Notes under the pieces: generated by a model
Databases searched by the model: none
The model's input: only the letters and a program-made list of their open reading frames with translations
Told to the model about the DNA's origin: nothing
Made by a program: the position numbers and the translations under genes
DNA from: Candidatus Poseidoniales archaeon
GTDB lineage: Archaea > Thermoplasmatota > Poseidoniia > Poseidoniales > Thalassarchaeaceae
Direction: 5' to 3'
DNA length: 37,657 nt
NCBI GenBank assembly: GCA_003602515.1
Contig: QQSB01000034.1
Location: 1-37,657, forward strand
In this document: piece by piece, positions 28,729-37,628 of the stretch
How positions within the stretch are numbered: position 1 is the stretch's first letter
How the letters are laid out: every line of letters begins with the position of its first letter

Positions 28729-30507
28729 ATGTCAGAACGCAGACAACCCATCGTCGCTGTCCTAGGCCATGTTGATCATGGTAAGACCTCCTTGCTAGAT
28801 CATGTGAGATCACTAGGTGAGCAGGGTCGATCCTCGGTAATGGACAGGGAGGCTGGAGGGATTACCCAGCATATCGGAGCCACAGAAGTTCCGTCGGAAA
28901 TCCTCAATGATTTGTGTGCCCCGCTATTGGGGGGGAAGAAATTCGACTCCCCCGGACTACTCTTCATTGATACCCCGGGGCACCATTCGTTTTCCTCGCT
29001 CCGTGCAAGAGGGGGATCTCTGGCAGATATTGCAATTCTAATTGTTGATGTTATGGAGGGCTGCAGGCCACAGACAAGGGAGTCTCTGAGAATCCTGAAG
29101 CAATCGAAGACTCCCTTCGTTGTCGCAGGGAACAAGGTGGACAGGATTCATGGATGGCAGTGCCAAGAAGGGAGGTCGATGGCCATCTCGATGAGAGACC
29201 AGACGAAGGAGGTTCAGGGCCTATTCGACCAGAAGTACTGGGAACTCGTAGGTCAGTTTGCCGAGGAAGGATTCAACCTAGAGAGGTATGAGAGAATTAA
29301 GGACTTCACCAAGGAGATCGCAATGGTCCCAGTTTCTGCTAGGGAGGGAGAGGGCATTCAGGACCTATTAGCGGTTGTGATAGGCCTAGCAGAGCGATAC
29401 CTCTCCGACCAGTTGACAGATGTTGATGGTTCTGGAGAAGCGACCGTCTTGGAGATGAAGGAGGAGAGGGGGCTTGGCAAGACGCTGGACCTTATCCTGC
29501 ATAGGGGATCTATCCGCAAGGGGGATGAGATAGTACTGGTCGGCGATAGAGGAGGGGTCAGCACCCACGTGAAGGGGTTATTCTCGCCAAGAGGGATGAG
29601 CGAGATGCGAGATGCCGGGGACAGATGGGATAACGCAGAAGCTGCTTACGCGGCTGCTGGAATCAAGATTAGCGCACCATCTTTGGAGGGCGTCTTGGTG
29701 GGAACTACGCTTCGAGTAGTTTCATCCGACGAGGAGAGGGACGCTGCATTGGCAGCAGCGGACGAAGAGGCTAATCTCTCGATTGATCTAGACGAAGAAG
29801 GCGTCTGCATCAAGTCGGACACGGTTGGAGGGCTAGAGGCTCTGGCAAAGGAGCTCAGGGAGATAGGCGTGCCAATCAGAGATGCATCCATTGGAAAGGT
29901 CAGTCGTAGGGATGTTCGTAGCGCTGAGGCGTCCACAGACCCCCTGAACCGACTGATCATGGCATTCAGCACTGAGATTCTCGAAGAGGCAGAGGAAGAA
30001 GTAGCAGCCTCAGAAGCGGGAGTCATGTACATTGGATCCGACATTATCTACAGAATTCTGGAAGAGCGGGAAGAATGGGTAGAAGCCCGGAAATCAGAGC
30101 TCGAGGAAGAGCGGAGAGAATTGGTCGTATACCCTGGCAGAATTATGCTCCTCCCTGATCATACATTCAGAATCTCGAAGCCAGCCGTCGTTGGAGTAAG
30201 GGTTCTCGGAGGCAGAATACACATTGGACAGGGGCTTCTCAAAGATGGAGTTCGGGTTGGACGAATAAAATCCATCAGATCAGGGCAAGAGAGCCTAAAG
30301 GAAGCGATGCAGGGTGCTGAGGTGGCAATTTCAGTTGATGGTGTCACTGTAGGAAGGCAGATTGACGAGGGAGACGTCCTCCTGGTCGATATTCCGGAAT
30401 CGCATGCCAGGAAGCTTAGGAAGATGGAGATGACCTCTATGGAGAAGGACGTATACGAGGAGTTGCTGGCAATTCATAGGAAGGATGACCACTTCTGGGG
30501 CAGATAA
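28729..30507 (+). CDS. infB: Translation initiation factor aIF5B (IF-2 homologue)
   Basis: This is a 592-residue GTPase. G1 is VLGHVDHGKTSLLDHVR, switch-1 region GGITQHIGATEVP, G3 DTPGHHSF, G4 GNKVDRIHGW, and G5 region VPVSAREGEGIQDLL. The beta-barrel and helical domains III and IV (e.g. TVGGLEALAKELREIGVPIRDASIGKVSRRDV and LPDHTFRISKPAVVGVRVLGG) follow the archaeal aIF5B plan. Length matches the archaeal form. It promotes subunit joining during initiation. No intein or insertion was seen. It is downstream of ndk by about 41 bases and precedes the MoxR gene. Confidence 0.97.
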   Translation: MSERRQPIVAVLGHVDHGKTSLLDHVRSLGEQGRSSVMDREAGGITQHIGATEVPSEILNDLCAPLLGGKKFDSPGLLFIDTPGHHSFSSLRARGGSLADIAILIVDVMEGCRPQTRESLRILKQSKTPFVVAGNKVDRIHGWQCQEGRSMAISMRDQTKEVQGLFDQKYWELVGQFAEEGFNLERYERIKDFTKEIAMVPVSAREGEGIQDLLAVVIGLAERYLSDQLTDVDGSGEATVLEMKEERGLGKTLDLILHRGSIRKGDEIVLVGDRGGVSTHVKGLFSPRGMSEMRDAGDRWDNAEAAYAAAGIKISAPSLEGVLVGTTLRVVSSDEERDAALAAADEEANLSIDLDEEGVCIKSDTVGGLEALAKELREIGVPIRDASIGKVSRRDVRSAEASTDPLNRLIMAFSTEILEEAEEEVAASEAGVMYIGSDIIYRILEEREEWVEARKSELEEERRELVVYPGRIMLLPDHTFRISKPAVVGVRVLGGRIHIGQGLLKDGVRVGRIKSIRSGQESLKEAMQGAEVAISVDGVTVGRQIDEGDVLLVDIPESHARKLRKMEMTSMEKDVYEELLAIHRKDDHFWGR

Positions 30508-30558: not shown

Positions 30559-31572
30559 TTGGCCTATGGAGTAAGAGGGTTCAGTGTGGCGATTGCTCAG
30601 GGTGGTGGTTCTAGCTCAAAGGACCTCATTAGATCGGTCTCTGGGCATGCTAACAATCTCATGAGCGAGGTTGCCAAGGTCATTATTGGTAAGCCGGAAA
30701 ATATCCGAAAGGTGGCAATTGGAATACTGGCCAATGGTAACATCCTGATTGAAGACAATCCGGGCCTGGCAAAGACTCTGATGTCGAATACTTTCGCTGA
30801 AGCACTCGGTTGCAAGTTCAAGAGAGTGCAGTTCACCCCTGACCTGCTTCCCGCGGATATAATCGGGACCTACATGTATGACCAGAAGACTGGAGAGTTC
30901 AGGCCTAGGTTCGGCCCTCTATTCACCAACATACTTCTAGCAGACGAGATTAACAGAGCCCCTCCGAAGACTCAGGCTGCTCTCCTCGAGGCTATGGAAG
31001 AGAAGCAAGTAACAATTGAGGGGATTACACACAAACTCCCTGCACCATTCGTAACGATGGCAACTCAGAACCCAATTGAGCAGGAGGGGACCTATCCCCT
31101 TCCCGAGGCACAAATGGATAGATTCCTCATGAAGATGAGCATGGGATACCCATCGATGGACGAAGAGAAGGCGATACTGCAGAGAAGGAAGCTGCGAGGA
31201 AAAGACAACTACGATGTTGAACAGATTGTCGAGCCTCGAAAGGTTGTGGCGATGCAGAAGGCCCTGGAGACCGTTCACATCGATCCAGGCATCCTAGGGT
31301 ACATCGTACAAGTCGTCCAGAGAACTAGGGCAGATCCAAGAATAGAGGCAGGGGCCTCACCAAGGGCTAGCCAGGGCCTTTTCAAAGCATCAAGGGCGTC
31401 TGCCGCAATCGATGGGAGGGACTACGTGATCCCTGATGACGTGAAAGGGGTCGCTCTGGATGTGGTCAGCCATAGGATTGTCCTCAAGCCCGAGTCCAAG
31501 ATTAGAGGGGTTACTGGAAGGAGGGTCGTGAACAAGATCCTCAGTGAAGTTCAGGTCCCGGTAATACAGTAA
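30559..31572 (+). CDS. MoxR-family AAA+ ATPase
   Basis: This 337-residue ORF starts at a TTG; a GTG at 30586 (VAIAQGGG) is an alternative. MoxR features: Walker A region LIEDNPGLAKTLM, RVQFTPDLLPADIIGTYMYD, Walker B NILLADEINRAPPKTQAALLEAMEE, sensor 1 TQNPIEQEGTYPLPEAQMDRFLM, and the C-terminal lid domain with sensor 2 SPRASQGLFKASRA. Such ATPases act as chaperones that insert metals or assemble complexes, commonly paired with a VWA-domain protein. No VWA or DUF58 partner is adjacent; the next gene encodes a ParA-like ATPase. The substrate is unknown. Confidence 0.94.
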   Translation: MAYGVRGFSVAIAQGGGSSSKDLIRSVSGHANNLMSEVAKVIIGKPENIRKVAIGILANGNILIEDNPGLAKTLMSNTFAEALGCKFKRVQFTPDLLPADIIGTYMYDQKTGEFRPRFGPLFTNILLADEINRAPPKTQAALLEAMEEKQVTIEGITHKLPAPFVTMATQNPIEQEGTYPLPEAQMDRFLMKMSMGYPSMDEEKAILQRRKLRGKDNYDVEQIVEPRKVVAMQKALETVHIDPGILGYIVQVVQRTRADPRIEAGASPRASQGLFKASRASAAIDGRDYVIPDDVKGVALDVVSHRIVLKPESKIRGVTGRRVVNKILSEVQVPVIQ

Positions 31573-31610: not shown

Positions 31611-32513
31611 GTGGCAGTAGTGATAGCCTGCGTGAATCACAAAGGCGGATGTTCTCGGACGACCACTGCAGTGAACCTGGCCTCATCTCTGGCAATGGGG
31701 AGCGAGGATTACGGGATACGAAGCAGGAAGGTTCTGCTTGTTGACATGGACCCGAAGGGAAACGTGGCAACGACCTTCGGTGTTGACAAGAGGAGCGTGG
31801 GGCCGACAATGAATGAGTTGTTCGCTCGGGGTGTGGACGATGAGTCTCTGAAACTGGAGGATTGCATACTTGGTCCGGATCTACTCTCAAGATCGATGAA
31901 GGCTGCTTGGAGGAAGAACAACCCGGAGAAGTCCAGGGGACCCCCCAAGCACATTGGAATCAGAAACTTGTGGATTCTACCAGCGGATCTGGATCTTTCT
32001 GGAATCGAAGTGGACCTAGCGACGAGGGTCGGCAGGGAAAATAGGCTAAAGCTCGCCCTCTCCGAGGCATTAGGTAATTTCGATGTGATCATTATCGACA
32101 CTCCTGCATCCCTGGGGCTGCTCACAGTAAATTCTCTGTGCGCGGCAGACTGGCTACTGATTCCCATTCAAGCGGAGTTCTATGCCTTAGAAGGAATGAG
32201 CCAGCTAATCTCCTCAATAAGGGAGGTTCAGAGGTCAGTGAATCCGGGTCTGGGCCTTTTGGGAATCCTGATGACCATGGTACAATCAAGAAGTAAGTTA
32301 TGCGAAACTGTTACCGAGCATGCTCGAAAGCACTTCGGGGACAGAGTCTTTGAATCGCAGATTCCAAGATCGGTAGCCATAGCAGAATCACCTCTGGAAG
32401 GTGCTCCGATAGTAATTGCACAGAAGCCAAACAAGTCAAACCGTGCTAGTCAATCATACTGGGAGTTTGCAAGAGAGGCAGATGGTAGAATCAGAGCGAT
32501 TACTGAATTATAG
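31611..32513 (+). CDS. ParA/Soj-family ATPase with altered P-loop
   Basis: This 300-residue ORF starts at a GTG. The fold is that of a ParA/Soj chromosome or plasmid partitioning ATPase: deviant Walker A at residues 9-18 (NHKGGCSRTT), Walker A' VLLVDMDPKGN, Walker B DVIIIDTPASLGLLT, and the typical ending IPRSVAIAESPLEGAPI. The signature lysine (Lys11) is present. The canonical phosphate-binding lysine of KGGxGKT is replaced by Arg16, and the preceding glycine by Ser. ATP binding or hydrolysis is therefore probably altered. No ParB gene is nearby. The gene is convergent with a long coiled-coil gene, with stops four bases apart, which suggests but does not prove a shared function in positioning. 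Confidence 0.9.
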   Translation: MAVVIACVNHKGGCSRTTTAVNLASSLAMGSEDYGIRSRKVLLVDMDPKGNVATTFGVDKRSVGPTMNELFARGVDDESLKLEDCILGPDLLSRSMKAAWRKNNPEKSRGPPKHIGIRNLWILPADLDLSGIEVDLATRVGRENRLKLALSEALGNFDVIIIDTPASLGLLTVNSLCAADWLLIPIQAEFYALEGMSQLISSIREVQRSVNPGLGLLGILMTMVQSRSKLCETVTEHARKHFGDRVFESQIPRSVAIAESPLEGAPIVIAQKPNKSNRASQSYWEFAREADGRIRAITEL

Positions 32514-32517
32514 TCCA

Positions 32518-33612
32518 CTAGGAGCCGGATTGCTCCATCACTCTGTGCCTTGCGTCAAGAAGAGCAGTTTCCATCTTTAGCCGGATTTCCGATTCCATGG
32601 TCTTGAGCATCTCCCTGATGTCCTTCTTCGACATGTCTCCCCTCTTCGACATCTGCTTCTCTAGGTTTGACATCATCTCGGACTCCCTCTGCTTGACGAA
32701 ATCGGCAACTCTCTGCTCCATCTCGACCTCTCTCTCCAGGGCTAGTTCTTGTCTTCTGAGCCCGAGTGCTGCCTCCATACTCTCCTTCTCCGCCCTAAAC
32801 CTCCGGTCTAGATCGCCAATGGCGGCTCTCTCGGATTCCTCCTGAAGTGCCTTTGTCCTGACACTGATGTCTGATTTCAGTTCCTTCTCTAGAGACTCTC
32901 TCTCACTCTCAAGCTGCTTCTCCATCTTGGTCTCATATTTTCGCCTCTTCTTGGCAATGCTATCTCTCATTTTTATTTCCTGCTCTAGTCTAAATGCCTC
33001 AGACTTGCGATGGACCTCGGACTCCATTGCCTCTCGGAGATCCATCTCGACCCTTCTTTCCATTCTCTCCATCCCCTGGTTGGCCTCCAACTCAAGCCTC
33101 TCCTCGAGGAATGCTTTCCTTCGAGTGAACTCAACCTCCATTTCCTCTCTGAGTCTTTCTCTAGTCCTAGACGAATGGGCCTCTGTCCTCCTATCCCTCT
33201 CTAGGTCGAGTTGGTCGCGAAGTCTGTTTTCCTCCCTGCGAAGGCGATGTAGCATTTCTTCTCTGAGAAGTCTCTCTTCTCTCTCCAATGATTCCTTCTC
33301 CAACCTCTCAAGCTCATCCTCCAGCTCGTCTCTGAGGTCTGCCTCAATCTGCTGTAATTGCTCTTCGAATAGAATCTCGTTGGCCTTCCTCATTGCACCT
33401 TGCATCCCTGAGACTCTCTCTGTCATCTCAGAAATTCTCATTCTTCGTTCTCTCCTGATTCCAGATCGAAGTGTTGACTCCTCATCCAGCCTTTCTCGAG
33501 CTCTAGCTGCTGCTCCCATTGCTGTCGAGGATAGTGCGTGCTCTGCCCTCAGAGCATCTAGTTCATCCAAACTCTCTGACTCGGTAGAGTCTGCCGACTT
33601 GCTCTCACTCAC
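32518..33612 (-). CDS. Long Arg/Glu-rich coiled-coil protein
   Basis: I prefer the GTG at 33610-33612 (VSESKSADS, 364 residues); the ORF track's ATG at 33735 lies inside the upstream gene. After about 40 Ser/Glu-rich residues, almost the whole protein is a continuous charged helical pattern (blocks such as LEREERLLREEMLHRLRREE and LEANQGMERMERRVEMDL), with few prolines and little glycine. Arg and Glu dominate. A short C-terminal part (DMSKKDIREMLKTMESEI) is less charged. No catalytic motif was recognised. Such proteins are usually structural scaffolds, filaments or spacers. It follows the triple zinc-ribbon gene on the same strand and faces the ParA-like gene. Confidence 0.75.
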   Translation of the reverse strand: MSESKSADSTESESLDELDALRAEHALSSTAMGAAARARERLDEESTLRSGIRRERRMRISEMTERVSGMQGAMRKANEILFEEQLQQIEADLRDELEDELERLEKESLEREERLLREEMLHRLRREENRLRDQLDLERDRRTEAHSSRTRERLREEMEVEFTRRKAFLEERLELEANQGMERMERRVEMDLREAMESEVHRKSEAFRLEQEIKMRDSIAKKRRKYETKMEKQLESERESLEKELKSDISVRTKALQEESERAAIGDLDRRFRAEKESMEAALGLRRQELALEREVEMEQRVADFVKQRESEMMSNLEKQMSKRGDMSKKDIREMLKTMESEIRLKMETALLDARHRVMEQSGS

Positions 33613-33712
33613 GTGCCCATCCCCAATTCGACGCCCTTTTCGGGGTATTTGAGACAAGAGGGTCGGAAATAGTGAGAAATGGCGGTTTCTAACCACTATC
33701 GGATTCTCGGAA

Positions 33713-34102
33713 CTAGAATGTGACGAAGAAGTCATTCTGGCATCCGGGGCACGTCAATTCCCTCTTCCCAGGCCTAGGTCTGATTCTCAGATTTGCTTCG
33801 CAGGACGGGCATTGAACCTCGACCTTGACTATCTTTCTAGTTAGAGTGAAAATTCCTGAGCAGGCTCCACAGGACAGTTCGACTGGTCTCTTTTCGGAAC
33901 CTGCTTCGACGACTGTCATACAATGTGGGCACTGTACCTTCTCCTCCTTGAGGGCGATAATAGTTGGTTGATGGGATACTCGGCATAGGGCCCCGCATAG
34001 TACGCATTCGATTTCTCCCAAACCCTGTGGAAGCATCCCTTCGCACTGCGGACAGTTGACCAAAGGCGGTGCTATCCTTGACTCGACATCGGGAGGTGCC
34101 AT
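33713..34102 (-). CDS. Triple zinc-ribbon protein
   Basis: This 129-residue protein is built of three consecutive zinc-ribbon units, each with two CxxC knuckles: CPQC...CVLC, CPHC...CGAC, and CPSC...CPGC. Spacing within units is about 15-21 residues. The first begins near residue 17, after a Pro-rich start. Between the units are short beta-like stretches with basic residues (RPGKRELTCP). Such arrays bind DNA, RNA or protein partners. No catalytic domain is present. It is the middle gene of three on the minus strand, between the P-type ATPase and the coiled-coil gene, with 25 bases to the ATPase stop. The specific role is unknown. Confidence 0.85.
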   Translation of the reverse strand: MAPPDVESRIAPPLVNCPQCEGMLPQGLGEIECVLCGALCRVSHQPTIIALKEEKVQCPHCMTVVEAGSEKRPVELSCGACSGIFTLTRKIVKVEVQCPSCEANLRIRPRPGKRELTCPGCQNDFFVTF

Positions 34103-34127
34103 GATAGCGGGGAATAATACAAGTTAA

Positions 34128-36830
34128 TCAAGCGGTCGCTGAGGCATCGTCGTCATTTTTGCCGGTGAAAATTGCCCAAATCTCCATGAGGTCGGAGAAA
34201 ATGTCTCTAGCTAGTTCGACCAATGAAGATAGCCTCTGAGTCCCCGTTCCAGATACCCACATTCCATTCAGTATGATGATTATTGCACTAGCCTCGTGAA
34301 GGGCTATACCGGCAGCCAAGTTTATCTCGAAACCCGCCAGTACTGCAGTGACCAGAATCATTGTGACTATCACAGAGATGGCTATGTTGGCATATACGAT
34401 TCTACGAGTTCTCTTTGCTAGTCCCACCATTCTTGAAAGTACCCTGGGATCCTGCCCGGGAATTAGCACGTCAGCTGCATCCAGGTTTACCTGGTCCCCG
34501 CTTCCAACTGCTACTCCGATGTCTGCTGCCGCAAGTGCGCCGGCATCATTGAAGCCGTCTCCAGCCATCATCGTCCGACCCTCAGAGGACAACTGAGTGA
34601 CGTACTCTGCCTTGCCCTCCGGGTCGACACCACCTTTGCATAGTGATGGGTCAATTCCGATCTCCAAAGCGAAAGCCTCCACGCTGGCCTGCTCGTCACC
34701 ACTGAGAATCTCGATCCTGACACCATGGGAGCCGAGTTCATTGATCGTCTCCAGGACTCCCTCTCGGGCATCATCGTGGGCAAATGATATTGCAGCAACA
34801 GCAGAGCCTTCCACTGAAAGGATGCTTGCGCCCTTTCCTGCATCCCTGGAGTCTTCTAGTGCCTCCTCGATTTCATTTGGGATGGAAACTTCGCGTGATC
34901 GAACCCAATCGGCTCTACCCAGGATCACTGATTCTCCCCTGTATATCCCAAACACTCCTGCATCTCCATCCTTGATCTGAGTTACCCTCATTGGATTGAG
35001 AGAGCGGGCTTCAGCCTCCTGGATTATCGTCTTTGCATAGGGGTGATTGGAGCGGGCCTCAAGACCTGCTGCAATTCTGAGCACTCTAGACTCGTCCTCC
35101 CCCCTAGCAACAGAAATGCCTGAGATTGTGGGAGTTCCACTGGTAAGTGTCCCAGTCTTGTCCAACAAGGCGAGTTTTACCTCTGCTGCCGATTCTAGAA
35201 CATCTCCACCCCTGGCTATCAATCCGAAACCGGATGCAGTAGTAAGTGCGGCTGCATGGGGAACCGGGGAAGCTAGTAGGAGTGAGCAAGGGCAAGAAAC
35301 CACCCAGAGAAGCAGCGTTGTCAGAATTGCCTGTTCAGTAGAGTTGGTGAACAAGAACCCGATTATTGGCGAAGCGAAGACAACGAGAGGGGTCCAGACT
35401 AGAGTGAACCTCTCAATCACACTCTGCGTCCTTGTTGGTTGATCCTTGTAGTGCCTCACTAGGTCAATCAAACTGGAAAGCCTAGTATCATCGCCTGTGG
35501 CCTCTGACTGGATGACTAGAGGCCCTCGAGTCAATACTAGACCAGCCTCTACCCTATCGCCTACCTTTACTGGAACCGGGATTGGTTCGCCGGTCAGAGG
35601 TGCTCTGTCTATGGCACCAGATCCTTCCACGATTACTCCGTCTACGGGTACTTTCTCCCCAGATCTTACCTCGATCATCTCTCCGACTTCGAGTGCCTCC
35701 ACTGGGACTAGGTCATTGTCACAGTCTATGGCAGAGGATGGATCCAAGGAAGCGGTAGAAATCACATTTAGAGACCTAGTCACTTCGATCTCCATTGGTT
35801 TTTCACTGGTAACTACTCTCGCCCTCCTCGGGAGTCGGTCGAGCCCTCCCTGCATCGATTGCCTCGCTCTAATCAATGCGCGGTTCTCTAGGTGGGAAGC
35901 AAATGCGACCAGTGATACAACCATCAGGGCCTCTATCAGCTCACCAAGTGCAATTGCCCCTATTACTGCCATTGATGTTAGGACCTGGAATCCAACAACA
36001 CGATTTTTCAGTCCTGCTATGGCTTCCTTGAACAATTGGTTTCCTGCAAAGGCGACGCCCCCGAGAGATAGTGCCCAGACCACTACTTTGGGAATCTGTT
36101 CGGATGCCTCTAAGGCTGCCACTAGCATGATCAGAGGTATTGTCAGAACAGCTGCAAGGAGTTGGATCTGATCCTTCCTAAATCCAGATTCCCTGACAGG
36201 AGAGAGCATGTGACCCTCTCCAAGTATCTCGGACATCTTCTGTTCGGATGCCCCTCTCAGTTCCGGATCGGAAATCCAAACTCGTTGAACATCGATGTGG
36301 CCTTTGTCGGTTCGTGCATCCAATGTCCCGGGAATACTGAGTATAGAGTTCCGAAGTCCCCTGTTGTCTAAACCGAGTCTCGGGGCAATTCTTTCAGGGT
36401 TAGCGCCATCCGCTCTCAGCCACCCAATATCTGGCTCATGTCCAAGACTGGCGAGGACTGAGGAGGCCCTGGAAACCGTACCAACCGATATGTCCTGAGA
36501 TATCTCGACCGTGCCCTCGGCTACTGAAATCCTACAAGACTGGATTCCAGGTAGGCGTTTGACTGCCCGGGATGCCTTCATTGCGCAGTCAGGGCAGTCC
36601 ATCCCCCTGATCCCCCAGTCGAACTGGAAAACCCCATCTAACGAAATCTCAATTCCATCGAATTCTCGTGGTTCTACTTCCCGTGGTTCTGAGGAGTGGA
36701 CTCTTTTTGCGGGCTTCCTCTTTGGTAGTGAGATCTTTGGGAGTGAGATCTTCCTAGATGGGTTCTTTTCCGAAGAGTTGTCACCTTCCTCGTCATCGAG
36801 GTATAGGAAATCATCGGAGTCCTCTACCAT
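34128..36830 (-). CDS. Heavy-metal (P1B-type) P-type ATPase
   Basis: I prefer the ATG at 36828-36830 (MVEDSDDF, 900 residues); the ORF track's longer form overlaps the divergent HAD gene. An acidic, repeat-containing N-terminus of about 60 residues precedes an HMA domain with GMDCPDC (near residues 76-82). A second HMA-like segment without the CxxC follows. Core motifs: TM6 SCPCSLLLASP, phosphorylation site DKTGTLT, SNHPYAKT (SxxHP), and hinge GDGFNDAGALAAADIG. TM8 reads ALHEASAIIIILNG, recalling the HEG[ST]-type of Zn/Cd/Co pumps rather than copper pumps. It exports a soft metal from the cytoplasm using ATP. CPC with HEAS leaves the ion undecided; zinc or a related divalent ion is likeliest. 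Confidence 0.92.
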   Translation of the reverse strand: MVEDSDDFLYLDDEEGDNSSEKNPSRKISLPKISLPKRKPAKRVHSSEPREVEPREFDGIEISLDGVFQFDWGIRGMDCPDCAMKASRAVKRLPGIQSCRISVAEGTVEISQDISVGTVSRASSVLASLGHEPDIGWLRADGANPERIAPRLGLDNRGLRNSILSIPGTLDARTDKGHIDVQRVWISDPELRGASEQKMSEILGEGHMLSPVRESGFRKDQIQLLAAVLTIPLIMLVAALEASEQIPKVVVWALSLGGVAFAGNQLFKEAIAGLKNRVVGFQVLTSMAVIGAIALGELIEALMVVSLVAFASHLENRALIRARQSMQGGLDRLPRRARVVTSEKPMEIEVTRSLNVISTASLDPSSAIDCDNDLVPVEALEVGEMIEVRSGEKVPVDGVIVEGSGAIDRAPLTGEPIPVPVKVGDRVEAGLVLTRGPLVIQSEATGDDTRLSSLIDLVRHYKDQPTRTQSVIERFTLVWTPLVVFASPIIGFLFTNSTEQAILTTLLLWVVSCPCSLLLASPVPHAAALTTASGFGLIARGGDVLESAAEVKLALLDKTGTLTSGTPTISGISVARGEDESRVLRIAAGLEARSNHPYAKTIIQEAEARSLNPMRVTQIKDGDAGVFGIYRGESVILGRADWVRSREVSIPNEIEEALEDSRDAGKGASILSVEGSAVAAISFAHDDAREGVLETINELGSHGVRIEILSGDEQASVEAFALEIGIDPSLCKGGVDPEGKAEYVTQLSSEGRTMMAGDGFNDAGALAAADIGVAVGSGDQVNLDAADVLIPGQDPRVLSRMVGLAKRTRRIVYANIAISVIVTMILVTAVLAGFEINLAAGIALHEASAIIIILNGMWVSGTGTQRLSSLVELARDIFSDLMEIWAIFTGKNDDDASATA
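36721..36750. repeat. In-frame 15-bp tandem repeat in P-type ATPase N-terminus
   Basis: TTTGGTAGTGAGATC is followed directly by TTTGGGAGTGAGATC, one mismatch in 15. It encodes KISLP twice on the minus strand (KISLPKISLP). A second, less exact 15-base duplication lies just upstream in the coding sense, encoding the repeated EPRE motif (EPREVEPREF). Both fall in the linker before the HMA domain, where length change is tolerated. Confidence 0.7.
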
Positions 36831-36911
36831 GTAACTCCCAATATCGGGTATCGCTTCAACATAATGCAGCCCTGTCGGTGGTATCTTGAACGTACGCCAA
36901 TTCGAGGGAGC

Positions 36912-37628
36912 ATGGTAGATGTCCCCAATCTTGGAGAATGGGACATGGTTGTATTCGATGTCGATGGGACGCTTCTCGATAGAGATGGTTTTCATGACGA
37001 ATTGGTGAGTCTTGCAAAAAGGGTTGACAGGGATGTGATGCCTGTATCACTTGCATCGGGGAGGACTCTTCCCAACGTTACTCCTATTATGCAGGCGATA
37101 GGGACTTCGGGATTCATTGTCGCCGAGAATGGAGGAATGGTCTGGGATAGCATACAGGGACATGGAATCAGGTCACTCTCAGATGGTTCCAGGGCGAGGG
37201 AAGCAGCGGAATGGCTGGCGACGAAGATAGAGGGCCTGGATCCTAGAGGAATAGAGTCCAACAGATGGAGGGAGACTGAGTGGTGTCTGAGTAATACCGG
37301 CTCATTCGAAGAGATGAAGGGCCTGATCGCGGATAGTGAGTGGTCTGATCTCGAAGTGGTCTCAACCGGTTTTGCGGTTCACATCGCCAATCCGGGATTG
37401 GACAAATCCCTCGGACTGAGCATCGCTATGGAGCAGAGGGGGATTGATCCCAAGCGAGTTATCGCCTGTGGGGATGCCCCCAATGACATTCCTATGTTCG
37501 ATCTAGTTGGCTTCTCGGTTGCGGTCAGCGACCTCTATCCGGAAGTTGTGGCCTCCGCTGACGCTATCACCGAGGAAAGGGGCAAGAGCGGTTCGATAGA
37601 GCTCCTCAAGACTCTACTCGGTCAGTGA
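36912..37628 (+). CDS. HAD-superfamily phosphatase, phosphoglycolate phosphatase-like
   Basis: I prefer the ATG at 36912 (MVDVPNLGEWDM, 238 residues) to the track's earlier start, which would overlap the divergent ATPase. The HAD motifs are visible: motif I VVFDVDGTLLDRD with the nucleophile and acid aspartates, motif II SLASGRTLPNV, a lysine at DKSLGLSIAM (motif III) and motif IV ACGDAPNDIPMF. The small cap domain between motifs II and III fits the Cof/archaeal phosphoglycolate phosphatase subfamily (about 225-240 residues). Probable substrates are phosphoglycolate or small sugar phosphates. It stands between the divergent P-type ATPase and a minus-strand tRNA. Confidence 0.9.
   Translation: MVDVPNLGEWDMVVFDVDGTLLDRDGFHDELVSLAKRVDRDVMPVSLASGRTLPNVTPIMQAIGTSGFIVAENGGMVWDSIQGHGIRSLSDGSRAREAAEWLATKIEGLDPRGIESNRWRETEWCLSNTGSFEEMKGLIADSEWSDLEVVSTGFAVHIANPGLDKSLGLSIAMEQRGIDPKRVIACGDAPNDIPMFDLVGFSVAVSDLYPEVVASADAITEERGKSGSIELLKTLLGQ

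Follow-up and report, generated by a model that had tools for sequence, protein, structure and literature searches.

Positioning by ParA proteins is attributed to cycles in which ATP is bound and then hydrolysed. In the K124R mutant of V. cholerae ParA2, ATPase activity is abolished and ATP binding is lowered but kept, DNA affinity is as in the wild type and the foci are immobile, and the K122R mutant of P1 ParA anchors partition complexes irreversibly (PMC10287910). Both are laboratory mutants of bacterial type Ia ParAs, which have an extra N-terminal domain. Departures from the P-loop consensus are also retained naturally in the ParA/MinD superfamily, in E. coli BcsQ, whose P-loop reads RGGVGTT (PMC9178275), in McdA (SGGQGKT), where the signature lysine and not the P-loop lysine is altered, and in the KGGVGR-motif ATPases of NCBIfam family NF047398. 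In systems of the PomXZ/McdAB type an adaptor binds the ParA protein and stimulates its ATPase, while in SegAB, an archaeal chromosome segregation system widespread in Thermoproteota and Euryarchaeota (PMC12284271), SegA is the ParA orthologue and SegB an RHH protein. Our literature search found no report on the KGGVGR motif or on a MinD K16R change, and nothing relevant on ParA in Poseidoniales.

The window analysed here is a stretch of 37,657 nucleotides, contig C28 of a 1.36 Mb Poseidoniales genome that is 76% complete, falls within Ca. Thalassarchaeaceae (Marine Group IIb) and belongs to a genus labelled g1. It encodes a short, type Ib-length ParA, ParA-1 (Table 1), which has the overall ParA/MinD (deviant Walker A) fold, as seen from the Pfam AAA_31 match and from Soj/ParA matches among PDB sequences down to E=8.7e-49 (ParA family protein 8ray). 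The original prediction had read KGGCSRT at residues 11-17, and the sequence bears this out: the signature K11 is kept (codon 31641-31643), while the P-loop position holds arginine (R16, CGG at 31656-31658), as it does in all g1 members, so that the strict KGGxxK[ST] pattern is lost. P1 ParA K122R and V. cholerae ParA2 K124R carry this very substitution at the corresponding P-loop lysine; here it has arisen in nature and become fixed throughout a genus. McdA shows the reverse situation. The departure is similar to that of NF047398, yet ParA-1 falls far under the curated cut-off of that family (29.1 versus 90 bits). Lys11, Thr17, the catalytic Asp45 and the Walker B Asp163 are invariant, as are all other catalytic residues. 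As had also been predicted, there is no ParB beside ParA-1, nor is there one beside the second ParA discussed below, and a ParB_N domain search of the genome gave one weak match, away from ParA, which scored 22.1 bits where the cut-off is 26.3.

Table 1. Features of the ParA-1 locus, in coordinates of the window.
Feature	Position	Strand	Remarks
aIF2/IF5B-like translation GTPase	28729..30507	+	Conserved upstream neighbour; named from sequence, not family search
MoxR-family AAA ATPase	30559..31572	+	Co-directional, upstream of ParA; kept throughout the order
ParA-family ATPase (ParA-1)	31611..32513	+	300 aa, GTG start; Pfam AAA_31 E=6.9e-43
Deviant P-loop K11-G-G-C-S-R16-T17	31641..31661	+	Within ..VNHKGGCSRTTT..
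Long coiled-coil protein	32518..33612	-	364 aa, GTG start at 33612
Triple zinc-ribbon protein	33713..34102	-	129 aa, six CxxC pairs
P1B-type heavy-metal ATPase, N-terminal HMA domain	34128..36995	-	Directly upstream of the zinc-ribbon gene, same strand

Both families of the order have orthologues of ParA-1; none turned up in the genomes of family f3 of the class. Within g1 the gene is carried by 26 of the 28 genomes, every one of them with Arg16 in the form KGGCSRT or KGGCART, while position 16 is lysine, mostly as KGGCAKT, at 72 of 72 loci from other genera, a set that includes some genomes twice. A DNA search with a degenerate pattern, written for the form NHKGGC..R, matched 12 of 12 sampled g1 members and no other genome; since it requires NHKGGC it is blind to the NQKGG form of family f2, which was checked from the loci instead. 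Seven lysine or arginine columns are at least 95% invariant outside g1, and because column 16 alone among them changed, and did so in every g1 member, the departure from KGGxxK[ST] is beyond chance. Five synonymous codons are in use for Arg16 (AGA 10, AGG 7, CGG 4, CGA 4, CGT 1) and ParA dN/dS within g1 is ~0.09, which together indicate that the residue is held by selection; the comparison values within g1 are 0.035 for IF2, 0.06 for the coiled-coil gene and 0.08 for the zinc-ribbon gene. Arg16 is a real, selected, genus-level change, and the conservation of its column, which the original prediction had put up for testing, holds within g1.

Ordinary lysine in close relatives had been named beforehand as a sign of drift. 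At the level of the genus such relatives exist, since the sister genera have lysine, but the diversity of the arginine codons opposes the drift part of that argument. We consider it most improbable that Arg16 is an early step in the decay of a ParA drifting after it lost its partner: loss of the RHH-like gene described below did come before Arg16, and some g7 genomes give no ParA-1 match, but five codons maintained for one amino acid, the low dN/dS and a reading frame undisrupted in 26 g1 genomes all speak against it. Decay was rejected on codon diversity and dN/dS, the first of which largely refutes it. The missing matches, which occur in several g7 and f2 genomes, fall where contigs end.

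Most Poseidoniales have ParA followed on the same strand by the gene of a small RHH-like protein, an arrangement that resembles SegAB. This 80-aa protein begins with an invariant MTSxSVS..RR..N motif and shows the pattern of a helix-loop-helix, and its model (pLDDT 71, modest confidence) gave mostly RHH proteins in Foldseek, with MazE, ParD/PrpA, Arc, NikR, MatP and the pCXC100 ParB among the matches, none of them individually significant (best E 0.7). A PDB sequence search with the profile of the 80-aa protein returned nothing convincing, and thus the RHH assignment draws on the motif pattern and the weak Foldseek matches. Its companion of 84 aa, modelled at pLDDT 91, has weak best structural matches to PIN/VapC toxins, and it shows no conservation of the acidic residues that an active PIN site should have. 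The pair (L073:7842-8341) looks like a domesticated VapBC-like relic, judging by motifs and models, its RHH member standing where SegAB has SegB. The 80-aa protein is SegB-like by position and putative RHH fold only, and the accompanying PIN-like gene is a further difference from SegAB. An RHH partner directly downstream of ParA, its identity taken from a low-confidence model, is found in f2 and in the basal genera of family f1, whereas g1 has no RHH gene and an altered P-loop.

The distribution of these two genes gives the order of events. They stand beside ParA at 34 of 35 outgroup loci and at none of the 26 loci of the derived clade; G080 has them inverted, still in the neighbourhood. When 118 genomes of the family were searched in full with its profile, the RHH gene was found in 31, all from g4, g6, g8 and g11, and no homologue in the derived genera. 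A tree of IF2 and MoxR places g1, g2, g3, g5, g7, g9 and g10 in one group (support 0.87), and the loss of the RHH gene and the shortening of the coiled-coil protein fall on this same branch. Read from these sequences, loss of the RHH-like and 84-aa genes is what brought ParA and the coiled-coil gene together in the derived clade, and Arg16 arose after that loss, in g1 only. As the RHH gene is equally absent from several genera that still have lysine, partner loss alone is insufficient to explain the arginine.

The original prediction had gone further and joined ParA, the coiled-coil protein and the zinc-ribbon protein into one positioning or scaffold system. The particulars on which it was built are correct: the stop of the coiled-coil gene, at 32518, lies four bases past that of ParA, its product has 364 residues, and the zinc-ribbon protein has six CxxC knuckles, whose 12 paired cysteines are all unchanged in each of 51 homologues from across the order. 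A 405-aa start for the coiled-coil protein (ORF to 33735) was rejected as an over-extension, since relatives have stop codons in that upstream stretch. The protein contains no proline, and its hydrophobic periodicity is above 99% of shuffles. The hydrophobic period (32518-33612) is 3.78 residues, not the classical 3.5. In f2 and the basal f1 genera the protein is ~850 aa long versus ~365-400 aa in the derived clade, with lengths below 100 left out as frame-finder artefacts; at their ends, the long forms found elsewhere carry a disordered tail in which LKPV-like motifs are repeated. The P1B heavy-metal ATPase and the zinc-ribbon gene (window counterpart 33713-36995) are separated by an HTH protein in f2.

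A single machine of these three proteins, similar in concept to PomXZ or McdAB, would fit a neighbourhood kept across two families, the adjacency of ParA and coiled-coil in 21 of 24 decidable g1 genomes, and a coiled-coil protein that shortened on the very branch where the RHH gene was lost. However, the order PRPP synthetase, NDK, IF2, MoxR, ParA, coiled-coil, zinc-ribbon is conserved as a whole across both families, and with unrelated housekeeping neighbours equally syntenic (the aIF2/IF5B-like gene served as the control), the conserved adjacency is local background and no evidence for a ParA-specific unit. Other genes also separate ParA from the coiled-coil gene in most of the order, namely f2 and the basal f1 genera g4, g6 and g8, where the 80-aa and 84-aa genes on the ParA strand and a gene for a secreted, membrane-anchored protein of ~800 aa on the opposite strand intervene; the four-base spacing is therefore a product of gene loss. 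The ~800-aa protein has beta-propeller/DxDxDG repeats (L073:8348-10777 and L062:9092-11530, with ParA on the plus strand) and a cytoplasmic tail that finishes with the motif GLPxGWTxxQWxxYGxxW. That the two neighbours stay close to ParA, also put up for testing in the original prediction, is borne out, but the linkage is broken by a 3.3 kb insert between ParA and coiled-coil in G175 and G209, by the placement of the two on different contigs in G173, with other neighbours beside ParA, and in G034, where the RHH-like and 84-aa genes remain with ParA and the zinc-ribbon/coiled-coil module lies on another contig.

The strands of ParA and the coiled-coil gene are moreover convergent, and where PomXZ/McdAB-type adaptors bind ParA and stimulate its ATPase, the relation here is known only as this convergent adjacency. 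A K-to-R ParA is expected to lack the hydrolysis and cycling that positioning needs (PMC10287910), which argues against a positioning role, as loss of hydrolysis would take away the engine of such a machine. The comparative evidence does not support the three-part system, and we regard it as quite improbable. We read the zinc-ribbon and coiled-coil genes as a conserved unit of their own, which came to abut ParA through deletion.

A second ParA, ParA-2, with a canonical KGGVGKTT motif, occurs in 44 of 50 family genomes, representing all 11 genera, and may relieve ParA-1 of a cycling role. Downstream of ParA-2 lies a DMT/EamA-like transporter that begins with a ParB-type GLGRGL motif, e.g. MAKSGLGRGLDEIY..GPDLSSFV.., as at L072:7537-8499 with the ORF just downstream (G000:C1) and at L230-L234, L236, L244, L246, L247 and L250-L253. 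The genera g6 and g11 have the motif at the head of a separate protein of ~150 aa, and in g7, g2 and some g3 and g5 genomes the transporter is without it. This start resembles a peptide that activates ParA and has become fused to a membrane protein.

Considering these findings, the explanation that we favour, with confidence only a little better than even, is that ParA-1 of g1 is an orphan, probably hydrolysis-dead SegA-like ParA that selection maintains as a nucleoid clamp dependent on ATP. The gene would be a vertically inherited ParA/SegA-type ATPase, which in most Poseidoniales heads a co-directional unit with the RHH-like gene and the PIN-like relic; both partner genes were lost in the derived Thalassarchaeaceae clade, and in g1 the P-loop lysine was subsequently replaced by arginine, which became fixed. 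As Lys11, Thr17, Asp45 and Asp163 are kept, we infer that the protein may still bind ATP and nucleoid DNA as a dimer. It would hydrolyse ATP little or not at all, and this would make it a long-lived, ATP-dependent clamp on the chromosome, while ParA-2 could cover any cycling function. Counting against this explanation, the K-to-R effects are known from bacterial type Ia ParAs, and most of the genomes compared are incomplete MAGs.

It is rather unlikely, in our view, that the arginine is simply tolerated, ParA-1 binding and hydrolysing enough ATP to cycle with some other partner as its lysine orthologues do. Strong purifying selection with invariant catalytic residues is what such a protein would display, and the superfamily has other natural departures, the KGGVGR form of NF047398 and RGGVGTT of BcsQ (PMC9178275). 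Natural P-loop variants can keep activity, which counts against a hydrolysis-dead ParA-1. Against tolerance, two engineered K-to-R ParAs lose ATPase or turnover (PMC10287910), and no compensating column changes are seen beside Arg16 except L46M and I134V.

A more specific version of the clamp explanation is that ParA-1 is a natural hydrolysis-dead ParA, fixed in the genus as a static ATP-gated clamp that possibly anchors the neighbouring coiled-coil/zinc-ribbon protein, with ParA-2 doing the cycling; this we put forward tentatively, as less likely than not. If the clamp explanation is true, nature would have selected in g1 an equivalent of the classic hydrolysis-dead mutant, and this would show that a ParA can be useful without cycling. 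The order also makes available an evolutionary series, from lysine with an RHH partner, through lysine without the partner, to arginine without the partner, in which the contribution of each part can be tested, and which would be relevant to archaeal chromosome segregation, a process that is poorly understood.
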